Origin: a virus
Reading direction: 5' to 3' (one strand)
IMG/VR virus record: IMGVR_UViG_3300025669_000931
Span: 1 to 37,332 of that record
DNA length: 37,332 bases
The notes under the pieces were generated by a model. The model did no database searches, was not told the origin of the DNA, and saw only the letters and a list, made by a program, of their open reading frames with translations. Made by a program: the position numbers and the translations under genes. Position 1 is the first letter of the stretch. The number at the start of each line of letters is the position of its first letter. Positions 1,577 to 36,649 of this stretch are shown here, piece after piece.

Positions 1577-2827
1577 TTATAAAATTCCCATTTCCTTCAT
1601 CATTTTAACAGCAATTCGATATTCAAAAAGGCTGTCCAATCCACAATAAATTTGCAACTTTTCAAGCCCGCCCGGTAACTTTATCAATTCATCAATCTGG
1701 TTCAAATCATTACTATGTGGTGCAATCAAATAGGGATGGACTTCTTCATCATATCCAGCAATCCCATGATGTCGATAATTCTGAAATTTCAATCCTGTAA
1801 TTCCAGTTCTATTGTCTTCCACATGACTACCAAGCATCGGATCGAACACCCATGGGAAAATATCATATCCAAGTTTGACTTTTGTCCACGCGTGTTCAAA
1901 TTTCATGTTCCAGGCCGTTTTCCCAATTTCAGGGTTCTGATAAATAGCTTTCAGCATTTTCAAAAGCCGTAGACTCTTTGGTTTCTGGAATACGATTGCT
2001 CGGTTTGGAGTATCACATAATGAAATAATCCTAAGTCTCTGTTCCTTTGAATGGGGTTTCAATCCAGTTGTTTCAAAATCAGTTGCTACAATATTTGGAA
2101 GATCATTCCCGATCTGGCCCATGTTCATACTCAACAATGAATCATGAATGTCTTTTGGATTGGAAAGGATCTGTACTTGACTTTCAAAATCCTCTTTTTG
2201 TGGTAATGCTTTTTTCCACATTTGTAGTGCTTGTTTCAAATCCTGTTTCCATATCGTTTCAATTTCTTGTTCAGATTGATCGATATAAGATGGATGGAAG
2301 GTCGGGCATACCCAAGCATTATAAGTTTGATCTGGGATACTCCATCCCCGCCATTTTGCAATCCCTCCCAATCCACTTTTCCAGACATTCCCGATTATGG
2401 ATTGAATGGAAGTAGCTCCGAGTAGAATAATTACCCTTGGGTTTCGTTCATAAATCACTTTTGATACTTTTCGTTTACAACACGCAATTTCATGATCTGT
2501 GGGTTTTCGATCTCTTCCATTTTCATCCAAGGGCCGACAACCAATTGCATTGATATTCAAGCAATCCTCGAAAAGATCAATACCTAATTTCTGATAAGTC
2601 CTTTGTAGAAGTTTGCCGGTTTTCCCTTGCCACGGTTTTCCTTTTCTATCATCCCATTCTCCAGGAGCATTCCCGATATTCAAAATCCGTTTACGGAAAT
2701 TGCCAAATGGTTTCATCCGCGGGGTATTGATATTTTTGTATAATCCGCAGGTTTGGCAGGTTTGACCCTTGACTCCGGACATACTCATATTTGCTTTGTC
2801 AATCTCGGCTTTGGAAAAGAAATCCAT
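1577..2827 (-). CDS. Uracil-DNA glycosylase fused to DnaQ-like 3'-5' exonuclease
   Basis: Two domains are visible in one 416-residue protein. Residues about 20-205 look like a family 4/5 uracil-DNA glycosylase, with GNAPGEWDD near 52-60, FHPSY at 177-181, and cysteines C24, C27, C97 and C116/C117 spaced as in the iron-sulfur cluster ligands of that family. Residues about 245-416 look like a proofreading exonuclease, with DFETTG (D250, E252), N-M-K-F-E-H and a terminal Y-C-G-L-D motif. The glycosylase would remove uracil. The exonuclease would proofread for the neighbouring family-A polymerase, which lacks that domain. A GAGGAG ribosome site overlaps the end of the upstream clamp gene, so the two are coupled. 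Confidence 0.88.
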   Translation of the reverse strand: MDFFSKAEIDKANMSMSGVKGQTCQTCGLYKNINTPRMKPFGNFRKRILNIGNAPGEWDDRKGKPWQGKTGKLLQRTYQKLGIDLFEDCLNINAIGCRPLDENGRDRKPTDHEIACCKRKVSKVIYERNPRVIILLGATSIQSIIGNVWKSGLGGIAKWRGWSIPDQTYNAWVCPTFHPSYIDQSEQEIETIWKQDLKQALQMWKKALPQKEDFESQVQILSNPKDIHDSLLSMNMGQIGNDLPNIVATDFETTGLKPHSKEQRLRIISLCDTPNRAIVFQKPKSLRLLKMLKAIYQNPEIGKTAWNMKFEHAWTKVKLGYDIFPWVFDPMLGSHVEDNRTGITGLKFQNYRHHGIAGYDEEVHPYLIAPHSNDLNQIDELIKLPGGLEKLQIYCGLDSLFEYRIAVKMMKEMGIL

Positions 2828-2828
2828 G

Positions 2829-3851
2829 TTACTCCTCAGATTTGATATTTTCCAAAGCTGTCAGATAGGTCCAGTTTTCACCCTCGAATTTCAGGACTCG
2901 TTCACTTTTGATCGCTGTGCTTGATGTGTCCAAGATATGCATAAGAAAAGATGGGACAACTCGGAAAGTCATATCTGCATCTTTGTAATCACATTTCACG
3001 GATTCGGTAAACCAGTCTGTTCCACTTTCACATTGAATCGTCAATTTGTCTTTGGAAAATGCAAGTTCAATCCATTCGTCTTCGGTGTGATCTGCTTTGG
3101 AAAATACTTGCGCACGCTGGATAATTTCCTTTATCCCTTTCGGGAACGTGACCTGCACACCATCACATTTGTAGAGTTCGGATGTATCAATGAATTTCCC
3201 TTCAAATGATCGGCACGAAATAATGGTATCTTCTTTAGTTCTGAAATGAACCCAACCTTTACCCCTGGCAACTTCAATCACTTTGTATTTGACTAATTCC
3301 CTTGCGGTACTTCCTGGTAAAAGAAAACCGGGAATGGGCAGGGTTTCAATTTGATACAAGGCAAGGCGGGATCTGTTTGTGGCTTCGATCCTTCCGTCCT
3401 TTGGGATATTCACGCAGGTAAGAATCGGGGATGTCATATCAGAGCTGCAATTTGGGAAAGTGAATTTCAAAGCATCACGGAAATTATCCGGTAAAGTTTT
3501 CCATTTCCCTTTGGTCCCAATTTCTTCATCCAGGGGAAGCCGGATTTCACTTTGAACAGCAAGTCCTGCTTTGGCTGATCCAGATACCAACTTGATAACA
3601 CCATCCTTGATTTGAATTCCGATTTCCTTTGTACTGCTTTTGGAAAGGAAACCATACAATTTTTCCGCTTTCACGGCTCCCGTCAATTTCATATCCGGGA
3701 CGGGATGGCTGATGCTGGTTTCATCGTTGTAAGTGACTACCCGGTTTTCGATGAATGCAAAGGAGGTCGATTGTTCTATCATTTCCTTTGTGGCAAGCGC
3801 GGGCTTGACGATTTCAAGAGCTTTCTGCAATTCTGCTTTGTTGATTTTCAT
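2829..3851 (-). CDS. Sliding-clamp-like protein (DNA polymerase III beta-like)
   Basis: This 340-residue protein starts MKINKAELQKALEIVKPAL, which resembles the first helix of DnaN-type clamps. Its alternating strand pattern and three-part layout fit a beta clamp, and its length is close to the usual 360-370. It would encircle DNA and tether the phage polymerase. Similarity is weak, and the call rests mainly on the N-terminus, the length and the replication context. The start at 3851 has AAGGAG seven bases upstream. Its first 38 bases overlap the end of the preceding short ORF in another frame. It ends one base before the glycosylase-exonuclease start. Confidence 0.62.
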   Translation of the reverse strand: MKINKAELQKALEIVKPALATKEMIEQSTSFAFIENRVVTYNDETSISHPVPDMKLTGAVKAEKLYGFLSKSSTKEIGIQIKDGVIKLVSGSAKAGLAVQSEIRLPLDEEIGTKGKWKTLPDNFRDALKFTFPNCSSDMTSPILTCVNIPKDGRIEATNRSRLALYQIETLPIPGFLLPGSTARELVKYKVIEVARGKGWVHFRTKEDTIISCRSFEGKFIDTSELYKCDGVQVTFPKGIKEIIQRAQVFSKADHTEDEWIELAFSKDKLTIQCESGTDWFTESVKCDYKDADMTFRVVPSFLMHILDTSSTAIKSERVLKFEGENWTYLTALENIKSEE

Positions 3852-4062
3852 GGTTAGACTCCTTGATTAGAATGTTGAAAAGGTTCTGACACTTGAAGGC
3901 GTTTGTTTTTACTTCATGATAACTCAGAAGTCGGTTTGCAATATCGTATTGCTCCCCTGGTTCCTTTGTCTCTTTTGCTTTAAAACTGGCAAGGTAAATT
4001 CTCATTTGGATTGAACACTCATTTTCCGTTCCAGGGGCGCTCGACGCTAGATAAATTTTCAT
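3814..4062 (-). CDS. Short MKIYLA-family protein with two in-frame start motifs
   Basis: This 82-residue ORF belongs to the repeated N-terminal family described in the findings. It contains two starts in frame: MKIYLASS at 4062 and, 19 codons on, MRIYLASF at 4005. The second is followed by E-P-G-E-Q-Y-D-I-A, then RLLSYHEV and a tail with F-N-I-L-I-K-E-S-N-H-E-N that resembles the tail of the copy at 5711-5911. The first start may be the remnant of another copy fused by deletion. Its ribosome site is weak (AGG, then TCAAA). The 3' end overlaps the clamp gene by 38 bases in another frame. Its function is unknown. Confidence 0.55.
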   Translation of the reverse strand: MKIYLASSAPGTENECSIQMRIYLASFKAKETKEPGEQYDIANRLLSYHEVKTNAFKCQNLFNILIKESNHENQQSRIAESS

Positions 4063-4214
4063 TTTGACCTGTTTCTGAATAGTGTTTTAATTGATTACTC
4101 TCTTTTTCTTCCTTGTGATGCCAGAAACTTAACAATCGATATTTTGATTTGGCTTTGGTTAAACTTTTGACCTTGCGTAGATTCCAGAAGCCAAGTTGAT
4201 AAATAGATTTTCAA
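4019..4214 (-). pseudogene. Frame-broken copy of the MKIYLA-family ORF
   Basis: A TTG at 4214 with AAGGA seven bases upstream opens a frame reading LKIYLSTW, which stops at 4095 after 39 codons. The family's second motif, YRLLSFWHHKEE, is present in the next frame (+1) over the same DNA, and that frame stays open to a stop at 4019. Reading through one frame change near an AAAA run (about 4145) would give a product of family length. The simplest explanation is a decayed copy. Programmed frameshifting or a sequencing error are alternatives. The 39-residue frame-0 product (4095-4214) could also be translated as is. Confidence 0.5.
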
Positions 4215-4215
4215 A

Positions 4216-4731
4216 TCAATTTCCTTCTTGTAATAATACATTTGGTAAATCTTGAATATATTTTTTGAGCCTATTGGAAAGAAAAAACCATTCACTATGA
4301 GAATCTATTCGTTCCTTTTTAAATTTATGATGCAAGAAATATTCTACTCCTTTATCTGGACAAGGCTTTATCGCTATTACCCGTAATTTATTTGGATTTC
4401 CAGTTTGTAATTGCTTTTTTCTGTCCTGTGGGTTTTGTGCCCATCCAATTTTGACTTGTCTTTCATTCCCATTTCGAATGAAATACACATATCCGCTTCG
4501 CTCCATTTCTTCATATCTTTTATTCTCCCATTCATCTGGATCTTTCATTCCAGAAATTTCTATAAGTTTATCGAATGCATTCTTGATAAACTTTGATTTA
4601 CCGGCAACATTATCAAAATAGTTAAAAGTCAACCGATGAGTCTTTTTTTGCCTCTTCACCAATTTATAGTTAATAAGAATTGGTTCGTAACCACTTGTAC
4701 AAAGTGAAGGCTCTTTAAAGTAAATTTTCAT
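4216..4731 (-). CDS. GIY-YIG nuclease-like protein (T5orf172/MUG113 type) with MKIYF N-terminus
   Basis: The C-terminal half carries a T5orf172-like GIY-YIG fold: YVYFIRNG near residue 85, V-K-I-G-W-A, a Q-T-G-N-P segment, and a late H-H-K-F-K-K-E-R followed by S-E-W-F. Proteins of this type are nucleases or phage proteins of unknown role. The first 40 residues are not part of that fold. They start MKIYFKEP and contain THRLTFNYFD at about 32-41, matching the N-terminal module of the neighbouring ORFs. I chose the ATG at 4731 because it overlaps the dpdA stop as ATGA and begins with the shared motif. The open frame extends further upstream into dpdA. Confidence 0.72.
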   Translation of the reverse strand: MKIYFKEPSLCTSGYEPILINYKLVKRQKKTHRLTFNYFDNVAGKSKFIKNAFDKLIEISGMKDPDEWENKRYEEMERSGYVYFIRNGNERQVKIGWAQNPQDRKKQLQTGNPNKLRVIAIKPCPDKGVEYFLHHKFKKERIDSHSEWFFLSNRLKKYIQDLPNVLLQEGN

Positions 4732-5750
4732 AGCAGTTGCCCAATGGTATTCAATGGTTTGTACAGCCAGGGCCATTCCGGCATGGAGTCTTCCAAATCT
4801 TTAAAATAGATAACATTCAGCTCATCCCTCTGCTGATAGATATTACATAAGCCGGGTTCAATAATGGTTTCAACTTCCCTTTTCCCATCACAAGCTTTCC
4901 CGAACCAGCGTTCCGTATCTTTCAATTCGTAACTATCCGATTCAGTATGAAACTCTGATTCCCCGACCTGATATCCCTTATGTTTGAAATAATCCAAGAC
5001 GATTCGTTGCTTGCCTTTGGAAAGTGTTGAGATATGTTTGCCCGCTTCCTTCTTTGATGGGGATCTGTCGGACACTTGAATTTTCCAACTGTTTGCATCA
5101 TAGAACCATTTCCCTTGAGCATACCGGGGAACATAAACCCCACCTAACCGCCCGGTCAAAACCCATGATGTCGAATCCACGGAATACCAGGGATACCGGA
5201 GCATTAATTTCAAGGAAGTCATTCCGAATCCGTGGACTTTGATTTTAGGCATTCCAGAAGGGTCACAGATATACTCTGAAAAGCAACGGTCAAGCCAAGG
5301 TATTAGGACTACACTCGACGATCCCACCATAGCCCCTAGACTGATATATTCATAGGTGTTACAATAGCGTTTCAGGTATTTAAAAGGTTCATGAAGATGG
5401 AAAACTGGCAAGGGATTCAAACCAGCTTTTTCCATTATCTTTTGGTTCTGATAAGTTCGCCGGGCGCTATCCTTGTTTTTCCCAATTACATCCAGATTGG
5501 CATAAACAGAAATGGCATCCTTGTGTTCTTTGATAAATGAAATATATTCCTGAATATCAATTTTAATACCTTGAGTGAATGCTGAGAATGCTCCGGAGTC
5601 AAGAAATAGGTCTATTTTGTGTTCCATTGTCAGTTTTCCTTTTGTAACCATTAAATGATAGTACGAATGTAATCGTTTTGGATTGAGCAGATTTATAATC
5701 TCTCTCTCTCTTACAATCCCCCGGCCTTCCTCCGCCCGGCACTCCTGCAA
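4728..5750 (-). CDS. dpdA: DpdA-like tRNA-guanine-transglycosylase homologue (7-deazaguanine into DNA)
   Basis: This 340-residue protein resembles the phage DpdA group of TGT-like enzymes, which exchange guanine in DNA for a 7-deazaguanine such as preQ0. Landmarks from the TTG at 5750 are LDSGAFSAFTQG at about 50-61, VYANLDVIG near 82-90, S-L-G-A-M-V near 137, K-V-H-G-F-G near 171, and VDSTSW at 191-196. The aspartates in LDSGAF and VDSTSW are candidate catalytic residues. The TTG has no good ribosome site. An ATG at 5763 reads MKIWFAG behind AAAGGAAC but is out of frame, so the natural N-terminus is uncertain (see findings). It lies directly downstream of the preQ0 genes and overlaps its neighbours. 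Confidence 0.8.
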   Translation of the reverse strand: MQECRAEEGRGIVREREIINLLNPKRLHSYYHLMVTKGKLTMEHKIDLFLDSGAFSAFTQGIKIDIQEYISFIKEHKDAISVYANLDVIGKNKDSARRTYQNQKIMEKAGLNPLPVFHLHEPFKYLKRYCNTYEYISLGAMVGSSSVVLIPWLDRCFSEYICDPSGMPKIKVHGFGMTSLKLMLRYPWYSVDSTSWVLTGRLGGVYVPRYAQGKWFYDANSWKIQVSDRSPSKKEAGKHISTLSKGKQRIVLDYFKHKGYQVGESEFHTESDSYELKDTERWFGKACDGKREVETIIEPGLCNIYQQRDELNVIYFKDLEDSMPEWPWLYKPLNTIGQLL

Positions 5751-5911
5751 ACCAGATTTTCATTTTGTTCCTTTATGTAATGAAAAGAGTCTTTCACCGC
5801 AAATTGTTCCTGTTGAATATCCCAGAATGAAAGTAACCGATGTTGATAAAATTCAATTAGCTGTCTCTCTCTCTCTACGACCCCAAGCGTTCCGGCTAAA
5901 TAAATTTTCAT
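5711..5911 (-). CDS. Short MKIYLA-family protein, 66 residues
   Basis: It starts MKIYLAGT, continues with V-E-R-E-R-Q-L-I-E-F coded largely by a (GA)6 run, and has HRLLSFWDI at residues 24-32. It then runs into F-H-Y-I-K-E-Q-N-E-N and a basic glycine-rich end. The ATG at 5911 overlaps the upstream ORF as ATGA. Its 3' end overlaps the start region of dpdA by about 50 bases in a different frame. The first half aligns by eye with the frame-corrected N-terminus of the transglycosylase. The function is unknown. It may be a stand-alone copy of that N-terminal module. Confidence 0.62.
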   Translation of the reverse strand: MKIYLAGTLGVVERERQLIEFYQHRLLSFWDIQQEQFAVKDSFHYIKEQNENLVCRSAGRRKAGGL

Positions 5912-6078
5912 GTTTTTTGAATCTCTTTTTTTAAGTTAATGATTTGGAAAATATTATTACCGGCGTATGTATCCCAAAATGATACCAATCTTTTGTAGTC
6001 TTTGAGTTTAAAAAATAACTCTCTCTCTCTTCCTGGAACATTCATAACGGAAAACCCGCTAGCTAAATAGATTTTCAT
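5908..6078 (-). CDS. Short MKIYLA-family protein, 56 residues
   Basis: I translated this ORF directly. It starts MKIYLASG, has V-P-G-R-E-R-E-L coded across an (AG)6 run, and YKRLVSFWDTYAGNN at residues 28-42, ending in a lysine-rich tail. The start at 6078 overlaps the folE stop, and its stop overlaps the next copy's ATG (ATGA at both ends). It is therefore locked into translation between folE and the transglycosylase. No ribosome site of its own is needed if it is coupled. The function is unknown, and it is the first of the repeated short ORFs in transcription order. Confidence 0.6.
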   Translation of the reverse strand: MKIYLASGFSVMNVPGRERELFFKLKDYKRLVSFWDTYAGNNIFQIINLKKEIQKT

Positions 6079-6941
6079 CTCGAAATTAACATCAGTTCGT
6101 TACGGGCGGCAATCCCCATGTGGCTATTTTCTAGGAAAACCCCTTTCAGACTATTATACCCCATTACGGAATGTTGCTTTTTGACTCCCCGGCAGGCAAT
6201 ACACATATGCTTGGCTTCGATCATACATGCTGCTCCTAGAGGCTTTAAATGGGTCATGATAGCTTCTGTGACTTGTTCGGCAATCCTTTCCTGCATCTGG
6301 AGTCGTTTGGCAAAGACATCCACCAACCTAGCCATTTTAGAGGCCCCGAGAACTGGACCATCTGGAATATAAGCAACCAGGGCTTTCCCGTAAAAAGGAA
6401 GCCAATGGTGCTCACAAGTGCTGAAAAATTCAATATCCTTCAGATAAACCAACCCACCAAACTTTTGATTTTCATCATCAAATGAAGTGAAGAAATCAGC
6501 AGGGTTTTGTTTATACCCGGAGAAGGTTTCTTGCCAGGCTTTGACCATTCGTTTTGGAGTATCTACAATCCCGGATCGTTTTGGATCTTCTCCAATGAAT
6601 TGGAGCTGCCGGACGATATTCTGTTCAATGGTATCTTCCCCATTTGGGTGATCCGCTTCCCACGGGAAAACAATCCATTCATTTTGATAGTGTTTGGTTT
6701 TGTCAAAGAGGGCAACGAAAGGAGTTTGCGAGAACTTGTCTTTGTAGAATTGCTCAGTCCATCCGGAGTCTTTGACATCATCCAAGAACAGGGTTGCTTT
6801 CGATGGATCATGCGTGGTCTTGGCATGTTTTAGAAATCCAGCAACGATCATTCCACCTTTTGGAATTCCATAAATTGTGGTTCCCATATTATCCACTAAA
6901 TCCAGTTCTTTAAATACTGTATCCCATGTTATGTTTATCAT
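6075..6941 (-). CDS. folE: Phosphoribosyltransferase-like domain fused to GTP cyclohydrolase I
   Basis: The C-terminal domain (about 115-288) is GTP cyclohydrolase I, which converts GTP to dihydroneopterin triphosphate, the first step to preQ0. The zinc ligands are visible as C176 and H179 in CEHH, and C247 in HMCIACRG. The N-terminal domain (1-100) looks like a phosphoribosyltransferase, with IYGIPKGGM near 23-31 and the PRPP-type loop TLFLDDVKDSG near 50-60. I chose MINITW at 6941, one base after queC stops. The open frame extends further but would run into queC. It is probably cotranslated with queC upstream and the short ORF downstream. The role of the fused domain is unclear. Confidence 0.9.
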   Translation of the reverse strand: MINITWDTVFKELDLVDNMGTTIYGIPKGGMIVAGFLKHAKTTHDPSKATLFLDDVKDSGWTEQFYKDKFSQTPFVALFDKTKHYQNEWIVFPWEADHPNGEDTIEQNIVRQLQFIGEDPKRSGIVDTPKRMVKAWQETFSGYKQNPADFFTSFDDENQKFGGLVYLKDIEFFSTCEHHWLPFYGKALVAYIPDGPVLGASKMARLVDVFAKRLQMQERIAEQVTEAIMTHLKPLGAACMIEAKHMCIACRGVKKQHSVMGYNSLKGVFLENSHMGIAARNELMLISR

Positions 6942-6942
6942 T

Positions 6943-7629
6943 TCATACCTCATATTGAATTGGGTCATAACAACAAATTGTGGCAAATGCTTCCAATCTT
7001 TCTCGGCACGATCCACATTTCCCGCAACTTAATTCCTGATCCTTATAACAGGTCCGAGTTAATTGATATGGGACAATTGGGTTGTATTTATATCCAAGTT
7101 CAAGGATCTTTGCTTTGTCAAAAAAAAGGAAAGGGGTAGCAAGGTGAACCCGTTTATCAGATGAATGATGAAGAGCCCATCTGGTAGCATAAATGAATTC
7201 AGGGCGGCAATCTGGATAGATATGATGATCTCCGGAATGCACGCCAAGTGAAATAGTTTCGATGTTAAGGGATTCCGCCAAACCGGCCATGATTGAAATG
7301 AAAATCAAATTCCGGCCAGGGACAACTGTTTGTTTCATGTTTTCGTCTTCGTAATTCCCTTCCGGGATCGGACCTCCTGTTTGAAGTAATGCAGATTTAA
7401 AAAGAGACATGACGGCAGATAAATCAAATTGATGTGTAATTACGACAGGCCCGGGAACTTGATTATAATATTGGATTAATTCTTTTGCGGCCTGCATTTC
7501 CCATTTTGCGTGTTTTGATCCATAATCAAAAAGACAGCAATGGATTTCTTGTGTGCTACTCTCCGAGAACAATTTTCCGAGAAGAGTAGCACTGTCCATC
7601 CCGCCAGACAGTGCTACAATATGTTTCAT
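6943..7629 (-). CDS. queC: 7-cyano-7-deazaguanine (preQ0) synthase QueC
   Basis: QueC converts 7-carboxy-7-deazaguanine to preQ0 using ATP and ammonia. The ATP-pyrophosphatase loop SGGMDS is at residues 8-13. A zinc-binding cluster of four cysteines, C-x7-CGKCGSC, is near the end. The length of 228 residues is normal for QueC. The ATG at 7629 has AAGGAG upstream. The gene is followed after one base by the folE fusion and preceded by an unknown 240-residue gene, which separates it from queE. It supplies the last step of the preQ0 pathway. No queF was found in the window, so preQ0 rather than preQ1 is the expected end product. Confidence 0.94.
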   Translation of the reverse strand: MKHIVALSGGMDSATLLGKLFSESSTQEIHCCLFDYGSKHAKWEMQAAKELIQYYNQVPGPVVITHQFDLSAVMSLFKSALLQTGGPIPEGNYEDENMKQTVVPGRNLIFISIMAGLAESLNIETISLGVHSGDHHIYPDCRPEFIYATRWALHHSSDKRVHLATPFLFFDKAKILELGYKYNPIVPYQLTRTCYKDQELSCGKCGSCRERLEAFATICCYDPIQYEV

Positions 7630-8589: not shown

Positions 8590-9300
8590 TCAAGGCAATC
8601 CAAGGATCTTATGAATCTGTACTGAAATCAAAGTGTTGTTTGAAATTTTCCGATTAATCATATTTAACTGTTCCCGCAAGAATCCCAGCATTCGAGGAAG
8701 TGGCATATTCCGTCCCGCATTCAATGGACTAAAAACATATCGGGGTCTTTGTTTAATTTCAACTTTATCTAAACCCATTTCTAAATTATTAATGAAATTA
8801 AACGCCATTGTCAAATCCAGATTTGTTTCAAAAACAAATTTTAGATCAATTTTGATATTTTGAAGTAACAATTCCCCAAACCCACCCCGCGCTCGTATGA
8901 ATTCTTCAACTGTAATGGCAATTTGATCTGAACTTGGAAGTTTAACATCAGCCGAAAATCCAAGATTAGGTGCCTCTTGAATTAAAGCATGGGTGACTGT
9001 TCCGTTTGTTTCAATTTGGACAATGTGATTTGCTTTCAAAAGTTCCGAAATTAAGATTTCAATTTCAGGTTGCAGAAGCGGTTCTCCTCCAGTGATCAAA
9101 ATATGTTTGGTTTGGCAAAGAGAAAGGATTTCATTGATACTCATTTCAATTCCATTTTCCCACGGTTGAGATTCTGGAGAATCACACCAGTTACAATGCA
9201 AATTGCATCCTTGCGTTCTGATAAATGTACACCACATCCCTTGCGGAATTACGGGACCAGCTTCACCGCTGATACTTTCAAATACAGAATTGATTCTCAT
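8590..9300 (-). CDS. queE: 7-carboxy-7-deazaguanine synthase QueE (radical SAM)
   Basis: QueE rearranges 6-carboxytetrahydropterin to 7-carboxy-7-deazaguanine, the third step to preQ0. The radical-SAM cluster C-x3-C-x2-C is C32, C36 and C39 in GCNLHCNWCD. An ITGGEPLLQ motif for SAM binding follows near 70. The length of 236 residues is typical. I chose the ATG at 9300 (MRINSVF) because GGAGG stands eight bases upstream. Two other in-frame ATGs overlap the queD end and are too close to that site. It is cotranscribed with queD. Downstream is a gap with a promoter-like motif before the next gene. Confidence 0.94.
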   Translation of the reverse strand: MRINSVFESISGEAGPVIPQGMWCTFIRTQGCNLHCNWCDSPESQPWENGIEMSINEILSLCQTKHILITGGEPLLQPEIEILISELLKANHIVQIETNGTVTHALIQEAPNLGFSADVKLPSSDQIAITVEEFIRARGGFGELLLQNIKIDLKFVFETNLDLTMAFNFINNLEMGLDKVEIKQRPRYVFSPLNAGRNMPLPRMLGFLREQLNMINRKISNNTLISVQIHKILGLP

Positions 9301-9302
9301 TT

Positions 9303-9710
9303 TCATGCCCTCCATTCGGCGTAACTGTTTGCGGTTTCATACAGGCGGATGAATGATAAATTTCTGAGTCTGGTGAATTCTGATTCTAAAGGGCCGTGTT
9401 CATCAAAAACATAATAATTGACAAGTCGATCTCGTATCCATTCGATCATATTCTCAGCCGTAGGCATGAAGTATGGAAAACCATACGTGCTGACTTTGTT
9501 TAAATAAGAATGATCTAATAAATCGACAATCGGCTGTACCATTTTTTTGAGTGTTTTGAAATCAATTATCATTCCAGTTTCGGGATTAATTTCACCGAAC
9601 ACCCCGACAAGCAACCGATAAGAATGCCCATGGAGATTTGCGCACGCTCCTTTATATCCAGGCAAATAATGTGCCGCTTCGAATGAAAATTCTTTGACGA
9701 CTGTTATCAT
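9303..9710 (-). CDS. queD: 6-carboxy-5,6,7,8-tetrahydropterin synthase QueD
   Basis: QueD converts dihydroneopterin triphosphate to 6-carboxytetrahydropterin. The zinc-binding histidines H14, H27 and H29 and the catalytic C23 are seen in FEAAHYLPG and CANLHGHS. A later LDHSYLN segment also fits the family. Its 135 residues are normal. The ATG at 9710 has AAAGGAG at good spacing. The stop falls within the ribosome site region of queE, so the two are coupled. It stands first of the preQ0 genes in transcription order. Confidence 0.95.
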   Translation of the reverse strand: MITVVKEFSFEAAHYLPGYKGACANLHGHSYRLLVGVFGEINPETGMIIDFKTLKKMVQPIVDLLDHSYLNKVSTYGFPYFMPTAENMIEWIRDRLVNYYVFDEHGPLESEFTRLRNLSFIRLYETANSYAEWRA

Positions 9711-28516: not shown

Positions 28517-29398
28517 ATGGCCGAGCTACAACTACAATCGTCAATCCAGATTCTCCAAACGTATAATAATTTTTATGTTTATTGTCTTCATAGACCAGAT
28601 AGGCGTGATCCTTTAACTTTGACAGTTGGGCAACCATTTTATGTTGGTAAGGGAAGTAATGGACGTTTATCCGATCATCGGCATGAAGCTGAAAAACTTT
28701 TACATACACCTGGAAGAAAAATATACAAAATCAACATTATTCATTCTCTTTGGAAACAAGGGCTAGATTTTAAAGAGGTGATTATTAAAAATAATTTGAC
28801 GGAACAAGAAGCCTTTGCCATTGAGAAACGCTTAATCAAGATATATGGCCGGGTGAACATGCAGACAGGATGTCTTTCAAATATGACCGATGGTGGGGAT
28901 GGTCCAGCAGGCAGGATACCATGGAATCAAGGGGTTCCGCGCTCAGAAAAAGTAAAGCAAAAAATAAGAGAAACAAATCTTGGAAGAGTTTTAACAGAAG
29001 AACATAAAAGAAAAATAGGGCAAGGTTGTAAAGGGAAAGTATCTTGGATAAAAGGTAAAACCCACAAGGAAGAAACCAAAAGAAAAATAAGTCAGACTTT
29101 AAAAGGTGTTGCGTGTCCGGCAAGAGGGAAACCTTGTTCAGAAGAAAAAAAGGAAAAGCTCAGAAAGTCACTGAAGGGTAGACCCAAAGAGTTAACCCTA
29201 GCACAACGAAAAGCAAAGAGTGATAGGATGAAAGGGAACAATTTTAATGTAGGCAGGCGTCATTCAGAAGAAACAAAGCAAAAAATGAGAAAAGCACAGA
29301 TGGGGCATGCTGTTTCAGATGAATCACGGCAAAAAATGAGTGATGCTAAAAAAGGATATATCCCGTGGAATAAAGGGAAGAAACTTTGTAATGGGTAA
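28517..29398 (+). CDS. GIY-YIG homing endonuclease with NUMOD3 repeats
   Basis: The N-terminal nuclease domain shows F-Y-V-Y-C-L-H-R-P near residue 18, F-Y-V-G-K-G-S-N-G-R near 42, and the catalytic glutamate in A-F-A-I-E-K-R near 100. The C-terminal part has several NUMOD3 motifs, such as H-S-E-E-T-K-Q-K-M-R-K-A-Q-M-G and T-E-E-H-K-R-K-I-G-Q, which bind DNA. Such enzymes spread into intergenic sites. The gene is richer in A and K codons than its neighbours and sits between the signal-peptide cluster and the MuF gene, so it is probably a later insertion. Its end overlaps the MuF start. Confidence 0.92.
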   Translation: MAELQLQSSIQILQTYNNFYVYCLHRPDRRDPLTLTVGQPFYVGKGSNGRLSDHRHEAEKLLHTPGRKIYKINIIHSLWKQGLDFKEVIIKNNLTEQEAFAIEKRLIKIYGRVNMQTGCLSNMTDGGDGPAGRIPWNQGVPRSEKVKQKIRETNLGRVLTEEHKRKIGQGCKGKVSWIKGKTHKEETKRKISQTLKGVACPARGKPCSEEKKEKLRKSLKGRPKELTLAQRKAKSDRMKGNNFNVGRRHSEETKQKMRKAQMGHAVSDESRQKMSDAKKGYIPWNKGKKLCNG

Positions 29399-35497: not shown

Positions 35498-36649
35498 GTG
35501 GATAAGAACACATACAAATGCAGACGGTGCCAACATTCCTTTGAAATTCCGTCAGAAGGTCTATCCGGAAGAAGCACAATCGTTTATTGTCCAGAATGTG
35601 GCGGATACACAATTCAATGGCCTCCGATTAATAAAAACAAAAGCGGAGTTGGAAGCATGAGAGCTGCAGTTTTGGAAAGACTGAATAAACCTTTAATCGT
35701 GAAAGAATTGGCGATTCTGGAATTGAGTTTCGGTCAAGTTCTGGTCAAGATTCATGCAAGTGGGATTTGTGGTGCTCAGATGGGGGAAGTTTGTGGTGCG
35801 AATGGTGTTGATAAATATTTACCGCATCTGCTGGGGCATGAGGGCGGAGGAGAAGTGCTTGAAGTTGGTCCTGGTGTCAGTACAGTTAAGCCCGGTGATC
35901 ATGTAGTTTTGCATTGGCGGAAAGGAACAGGGATGGAAGCAAACCCGCCGGTTTACATTGATGCAGATGGAAATTCAGTGGGTGCTGGCTGGGTGACAAC
36001 TTTCAGCGAAGCTGCTGTAATTTCAGAGAATAGGCTTACTGTAATAGATGATGATGTCCCATTTGATATTGCCGCTCTTATGGGGTGCGCGGTCACGACT
36101 GGCCTTGGACTTATTAATAATGATGCACAATTAAAAATTGGGCAATCAATTGCTGTTGCCGGATGCGGAGGCATAGGATTAAATGTTATTCAAGGGGCGC
36201 GTATTGTTGGGGCTACTCCAATTATCGCAATTGATATTCATGATTCTAAATTGGAAATGGCTAAAAAGTTTGGTGCAATTTATACTTACAATTCTAGTGG
36301 TTGGTCTTTTGGTGATGTTGACGTTTTTGTTGACTGTACCGGTAATCCTGATGTCATTGCTTTTGGGTATTCGATTGCTAAAAAAACGATTCTTGTCGGT
36401 CAACCAAAAAAAGGAGAATGTCTCACAATCCCAAATGTGCGGAGCTGCTACTGTGGCAAAACAATCATGGATAGCCAGGGAGGGCAAACAAATCCCTCAG
36501 TGGATATTCCAAATTATCTAAAATTGTATAAATCTGGACGGTTAAATCTTATTGATTTAATTACGCATAGATTCAAATTGGAAGATATTAATGCGGCAAT
36601 GAGTATGGCCTTTTCCGGCAAAGCTGTCCGATGTGTATTGGAGATGTGA
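35498..36649 (+). CDS. Zinc alcohol-dehydrogenase-like protein with N-terminal zinc ribbon
   Basis: The first ~53 residues, from a GTG at 35498, form a ribbon with CRRC (about 8-11) and CPEC (about 31-34). The rest is a medium-chain dehydrogenase. Its own start motif M-R-A-A-V-L-E lies at 35657, followed by a catalytic cysteine in S-G-I-C-G-A-Q, G-H-E-G-G-G-E-V-L-E-V-G near 110, and the NAD loop A-G-C-G-G-I-G-L-N near 215. The two parts may be one fusion or a reinitiated pair, since GGAG stands eight bases before ATG 35657. Such enzymes oxidise alcohols or sugars and are rare in phage head modules. Confidence 0.8.
   Translation: MDKNTYKCRRCQHSFEIPSEGLSGRSTIVYCPECGGYTIQWPPINKNKSGVGSMRAAVLERLNKPLIVKELAILELSFGQVLVKIHASGICGAQMGEVCGANGVDKYLPHLLGHEGGGEVLEVGPGVSTVKPGDHVVLHWRKGTGMEANPPVYIDADGNSVGAGWVTTFSEAAVISENRLTVIDDDVPFDIAALMGCAVTTGLGLINNDAQLKIGQSIAVAGCGGIGLNVIQGARIVGATPIIAIDIHDSKLEMAKKFGAIYTYNSSGWSFGDVDVFVDCTGNPDVIAFGYSIAKKTILVGQPKKGECLTIPNVRSCYCGKTIMDSQGGQTNPSVDIPNYLKLYKSGRLNLIDLITHRFKLEDINAAMSMAFSGKAVRCVLEM

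Follow-up and report, generated by a model that had tools for sequence, protein, structure and literature searches.

The stretch analysed here, called the window throughout, is the whole 37,332-nucleotide viral record IMGVR_UViG_3300025669_000931 of IMG/VR. On its minus strand, short open reading frames (ORFs) surround a dpdA gene between folE and a gene that occupies the place of the DNA polymerase processivity factor (Table 1). Seven starts on this strand, at 6078, 5911, 5763, 4731, 4214 (TTG), 4062 and 4005, encode variants of M-K-I-Y-L-A, as had been reported in a preliminary description of the sequence. All lie in the array, and no other start codon of the whole window, on whichever strand, begins a match to the pattern [MLV][KR]I[YWF][LF][ASK]. 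Markov-resampled windows contain 0.12 such starts on average and two at most, so that about 0.1 would be expected by chance. An R-L-L-S-F-W-like motif was said to follow all of the starts except 4062; at 5763 and 4214 its R-L-x-S sits in the +1 frame relative to the start.

A module profile (HMM) built without any window sequence matches six of the seven starts, and all six are homologues of the N-terminal part of DpdA, a DNA transglycosylase that inserts 7-deazaguanine bases. The exception is the ORF at 4731, which had been taken for a module heading a GIY-YIG nuclease. It was rejected as a module fusion (3.4 bits, E = 5 at Z = 1000) and has little beyond M-K-I-Y-F in common with the modules; it is likely a homing nuclease gene that has inserted downstream of dpdA, ahead of the module that follows. 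Another GIY-YIG gene, which has four NUMOD3 motifs, lies among structural genes at 28517-29398 (+) and is likely a homing endonuclease.

Table 1. Features of the dpdA locus in the window; bits are scores against the module HMM built without window rows.
Feature	Position	Strand	Support
Protein in DNA polymerase processivity factor position, downstream end of the array	2829..3851	-	synteny with CAjan, BcepGomr
Standalone module, APGNE/APGTE clade (MRIYLASF...NRLLSYHEV...), 63 aa	3814..4005	-	41.6 bits; clade support 95%
Truncated APGTE-class module start (MKIYLASSAPGTEN), runs into next module	4006..4062	-	15.0 bits, first 14 residues only
ATW-class module, second half (KSKYRLLSFWHHKEE...), +1 frame	4019..4171	-	iE 1e-5
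ATW-class module, first half (LKIYLSTWLLESTQG...), TTG start	4095..4214	-	18.0 bits
GIY-YIG (T5orf172) gene, not a module	4216..4731	-	PF10544 E 2.1e-10
DpdA catalytic body from probable internal ATG (MEHKIDLFLDSGAFSAF...), 299 aa	4728..5627	-	phrog_887 E 1.4e-59
dpdA own N-terminal module, first half (MKIWFAGVPGGG...RER), frame 0	5599..5763	-	14.8 bits, residues 1-24
(AG)6 tract, overlap of the two frames of the dpdA own module	5699..5711	-	
Standalone module, class 'PGxxEREREW', 66 aa	5711..5911	-	66.6 bits
Standalone module, class 'SVMNVxGREREL', 56 aa	5908..6078	-	35.4 bits
folE (GTP cyclohydrolase I), upstream end of the array	6075..7016	-	PF01227 E 2.4e-58
queC	6943..7629	-	PF06508 E 3.1e-54
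queE-like radical SAM protein	8590..9315	-	PF04055 E 1.9e-14
queD-like PTPS protein	9303..9710	-	PF01242 E 6.4e-31

The ATG of the first module of the array overlaps the folE stop codon (ATGA), and this module groups with modules of seven other contigs in a tree (clade support 99%). The second shows 67% identity to a module of contig L022 and falls in a 95% supported clade that also contains the fused DpdA N-termini of L030 and L092. Two modules of the window are frame-broken, that at 4214 and that belonging to dpdA itself (5763). In the latter, the ORF carrying the first half continues out of frame past it, and the second half is encoded in the +1 frame inside the dpdA ORF, which is open upstream to about 5759. 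The DpdA body probably starts at an ATG inside this ORF, at 5627, which is preceded by AAGGA. The ATW class, to which the module at 4214 belongs, directly follows dpdA in 24 of 51 loci having a module in that place.

Other genes of the window have unusual features of their own. At its N-terminus the folE ORF is extended by about 125 residues, which include GIPKGGM and LFLDDVKDSG segments and look phosphoribosyltransferase-like, while Pfam gives GTP cyclohydrolase I only; L020 has a similarly extended ORF on the upstream side of dpdA. At 1577-2827 (-), an ORF that has no polymerase domain combines a uracil-DNA glycosylase superfamily domain with a 3'-5' exonuclease domain (Pfam UDG 4e-20, DNA_pol_A_exo1 8.5e-6). 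The protein encoded at 35498-36649 (+) resembles zinc-dependent alcohol dehydrogenases and has a zinc ribbon at its N-terminus; it is an unusual cargo near the contig end.

The enzyme of the window is identified as DpdA by barrel similarity, motifs, the fold of its relative L041 and linked genes, and base exchange is its predicted reaction. It is 43% identical to CAjan-type DpdA over 237 residues, and the motifs LFLDSGAFSA (DSG strand) and VDSTSW (the D-S-[ST]-[ST]-W aspartate motif) are conserved in alignments. Linked to it are genes of preQ0 synthesis, namely folE, queC and queE-like and queD-like genes, and its place between folE and the processivity factor is the gene order of Queuovirinae.

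In profile comparison, the module matches the DpdA N-terminus of the same clade with 97% probability (E 7e-11) and a profile of mainly Queuovirinae DpdA with 77% (E 2e-5). The AlphaFold2 model of a fused DpdA, that of L041 (pLDDT 90, pTM 0.86), places the module strands (residues 2-5 and 24-28) before the strand LFLDSG (51-55). According to this model, the module is strand 1, helix 1, strand 2 and helix 2 of the DpdA barrel, ahead of the catalytic DSG strand. The best structural matches of the model by VIA-align are tRNA-guanine transglycosylase (TGT; Z 17.7 over 259 residues) and DpdA 7ui4 (Z 17.4), and its residue 1 onward aligns from residue 40 of Z. mobilis TGT; Foldseek against PDB returned generic barrels only (E ~0.01). 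A standalone module modelled alone folds moderately well (pLDDT 74) and has helices but no strand of at least three residues, and the comparison of this model with viral structures gave no useful match. Sequence comparison of modules with E. coli TGT gave no match, and sequence alignment with this enzyme covers the DSG region only, with weak support. No family in Pfam, PHROG or NCBIfam covers the modules.

Relatives of the locus were recovered only after a broader DpdA alignment was used; scans with the single window DpdA or a three-module alignment gave no confirmed match, and a search of isolated phage genomes with P0002 found nothing. Three viral scans and six-frame HMM searches yielded a non-redundant set of 109 sequences, among them the window, that encode a DpdA body, and 92 non-redundant contigs (IMG/VR and the window) were scored as the modular clade, a large group of bacterial viruses known from uncultured material. 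Standalone modules lie within 4 kb of dpdA in 81 of these 92 contigs, one to six per locus and usually one to five, which answers the earlier suggestion to look for the same short ORFs next to dpdA in other phages. They are neither mutually unrelated nor missing from related genomes, the two outcomes on which the preliminary description would have given up the shared motif as chance or local decay. All 254 module matches are on the strand of dpdA and none on the opposite one; 101 of 130 junctions overlap, 65 of the 130 by exactly ATGA. A scan with the ATW-class pattern, independent of dpdA, found 24 viral contigs; 15 of them had already been recovered as dpdA loci, and each of the remaining nine likewise carries a DpdA body. 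Three GTDB matches to this pattern were rejected; they look like chance, having no DpdA body and weak or absent module scores. Some loci are further elaborated: a second, partial or complete DpdA body lies beside the first in L036 (1935-3805), L150 (3084-5024) and L021 (2863-3411), a module ORF in L045 (4467) is followed by a second RERERERE stretch, and in L072 (4416-6959) the open dpdA frame spans 847 codons and matches the body twice.

The modules form several classes across phages. Between orthologous modules of different contigs (65-91% protein identity) synonymous sites are saturated, and pN/pS is 0.29 over 131 module pairs, indicating strong purifying selection. It was rightly noted from the differing codons of the window copies that a protein is conserved rather than a DNA repeat, and the effect is far stronger across relatives. 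Of the readings first offered, partner proteins and a shuffled domain have both gained support, the former from the modules being conserved standalone genes and the latter from the different module classes fused to DpdA in different phages.

Exchange between the fused and free states is seen at the level of classes, as the class that L064 carries in fused form occurs as free modules in L061-L063, L071 and L082. In a tree in which many forks are unresolved, fused N-termini nest inside several free-module clades. Upstream of 33 DpdA bodies the open frame is too short for a module, and a standalone one is present at 31 of these loci; the exceptions are L066, which has only a weak candidate just downstream, and L179, which has none. 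All 14 Queuovirinae-like loci have a fused enzyme and no free modules. Most loci with an in-frame module have additional modules too, so completion of the barrel would not be the sole role of the modules.

These loci are best explained by a split DpdA, in which a small subunit forming a quarter of the barrel has been multiplied into a paralogous, exchangeable set working in trans; the probability of this reading is put at roughly two in three. The body and the standalone modules probably work together. DpdA is a (beta/alpha)8 barrel predicted to insert preQ0-type 7-deazaguanine into DNA, and its first quarter is a module of 50-65 residues, either fused to the body or made from a separate, translationally coupled small gene, and in this phage clade multiplied into several conserved classes. 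The small proteins would pack onto the catalytic body in trans, to complete the barrel or to replace the fused module. By analogy with TGT, the module would supply a pocket wall for the sugar and phosphate of the target nucleotide and part of the dimer contact, a mapping based on the range of the structural alignment rather than on a residue-by-residue alignment. With such a role, different modules could alter activity or sequence context.

Simple sequence repeats (AG, TA, G) are more frequent in the modules than coding would require. The density of repeat tracts is 2.08 per kb there versus 0.12 per kb elsewhere. When the modules are clustered at 50% identity, strict tracts are present in 16-19 of 77-87 representatives, against 7.0-7.6 expected from synonymous codon resampling; the observed count was reached by 0, 0 and 1 of 500 resamplings in three trials. 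Among windows of other genes, 43 have tracts versus 87 expected, so repeats are avoided there. Every one of the 17 frame-broken modules detected, the own module of the window dpdA included, has a repeat in the overlap of its two frames, and strict tracts are present in 14 of the 17 versus 41 of 202 intact modules (p = 4e-7, Fisher). The repeats at the frame breaks suggest phase variation, in which slippage at the tracts would let single modules and the N-terminus of the window dpdA go in and out of frame. The few near-identical contigs available show no repeat-length switch at any module repeat; L040 and L052, 98.5% identical over 8.5 kb, differ by one indel only, in which 29 bases are deleted from a module around 6139. 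It is conceivable, though rather doubtful, that the modules are phase-variable exchangeable small subunits, each setting target context or activity, and that slippage varies the modification pattern against host restriction.

Alternatively, the mid-module breaks might be programmed ribosomal frameshifts at the repeats instead of on/off switches. Both halves of the broken modules stay conserved, and the shift is +1 in 12 of the 17 cases, among them all three detected in the own module of dpdA. On the other hand, the remaining five shift the other way, the tracts are of various kinds (AG, TA, G, C, A), and most tract-bearing modules are in frame, as the 41 intact ones with a strict tract illustrate, which makes frameshifting unlikely.

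The fusion of different classes in different phages and the nesting of fused N-termini among free-module clades would also suit free modules that are mainly a reservoir, from which recombination, possibly at the conserved starts and repeat tracts, occasionally swaps a class onto a DpdA body, with no role in trans. This seems improbable: the free copies are under purifying selection and translationally coupled, and body-only enzymes would be left without an N-terminus unless a free module provides one. Nor is there much probability that the modules are small proteins of DpdA N-terminal origin with a separate role, such as blocking host restriction or binding DNA, apart from the enzyme; the several strongly conserved classes and the presence of modules even where DpdA has its own N-terminus fit such a role, but the strict linkage to dpdA, the fused/free exchange within classes and the free module nearly always found where a body lacks an in-frame one do not. 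Decaying duplicated remnants of dpdA, a further reading offered at first, are very improbable, since although the window copies 4214 and 4062 do look broken and L040 and L052 differ by a deletion in a module, purifying selection excludes general decay, the protein is conserved in cross-phage classes despite saturated synonymous divergence and recurs in many contigs, and more than 200 intact copies stand against the 17 detected breaks.

The closest known system to this putative split DpdA is the phage DpdA of Enterobacteria phage 9g and of Queuovirinae such as CAjan (Hutinet et al., 2019; PMC6884629). The 9g/CAjan enzyme is of the same family as that of the window, with a homologous N-terminus and with queC, folE and the processivity factor as neighbours, whereas its N-terminus is fused and its loci are without standalone modules. 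TGT has the same barrel fold as the DpdA described here, but it is a single full-length chain and acts on tRNA. We know of no TGT with a split first quarter. The preliminary description named no system with this layout, and in the literature searched no description of it or of a split DpdA was found. DpdA enzymes guard phage DNA against restriction, and their choice of target guanines is not established in the literature searched. If true, a (beta/alpha)8 barrel divided in nature between a catalytic body and interchangeable subunits for its first quarter would be an architecture seldom seen and would give a direct handle on specificity. In bacteria, phase-variable restriction-modification genes include mod genes with repeats and HsdS specificity subunits. 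They resemble the modules in combining exchangeable small parts with simple repeats in a DNA modification system, whereas their enzymes are unrelated and bacterial rather than phage-encoded, and module switching and an effect on specificity are putative here. If the repeats do switch modules on and off, the array would be a phage counterpart of these bacterial phase-variable modification systems.
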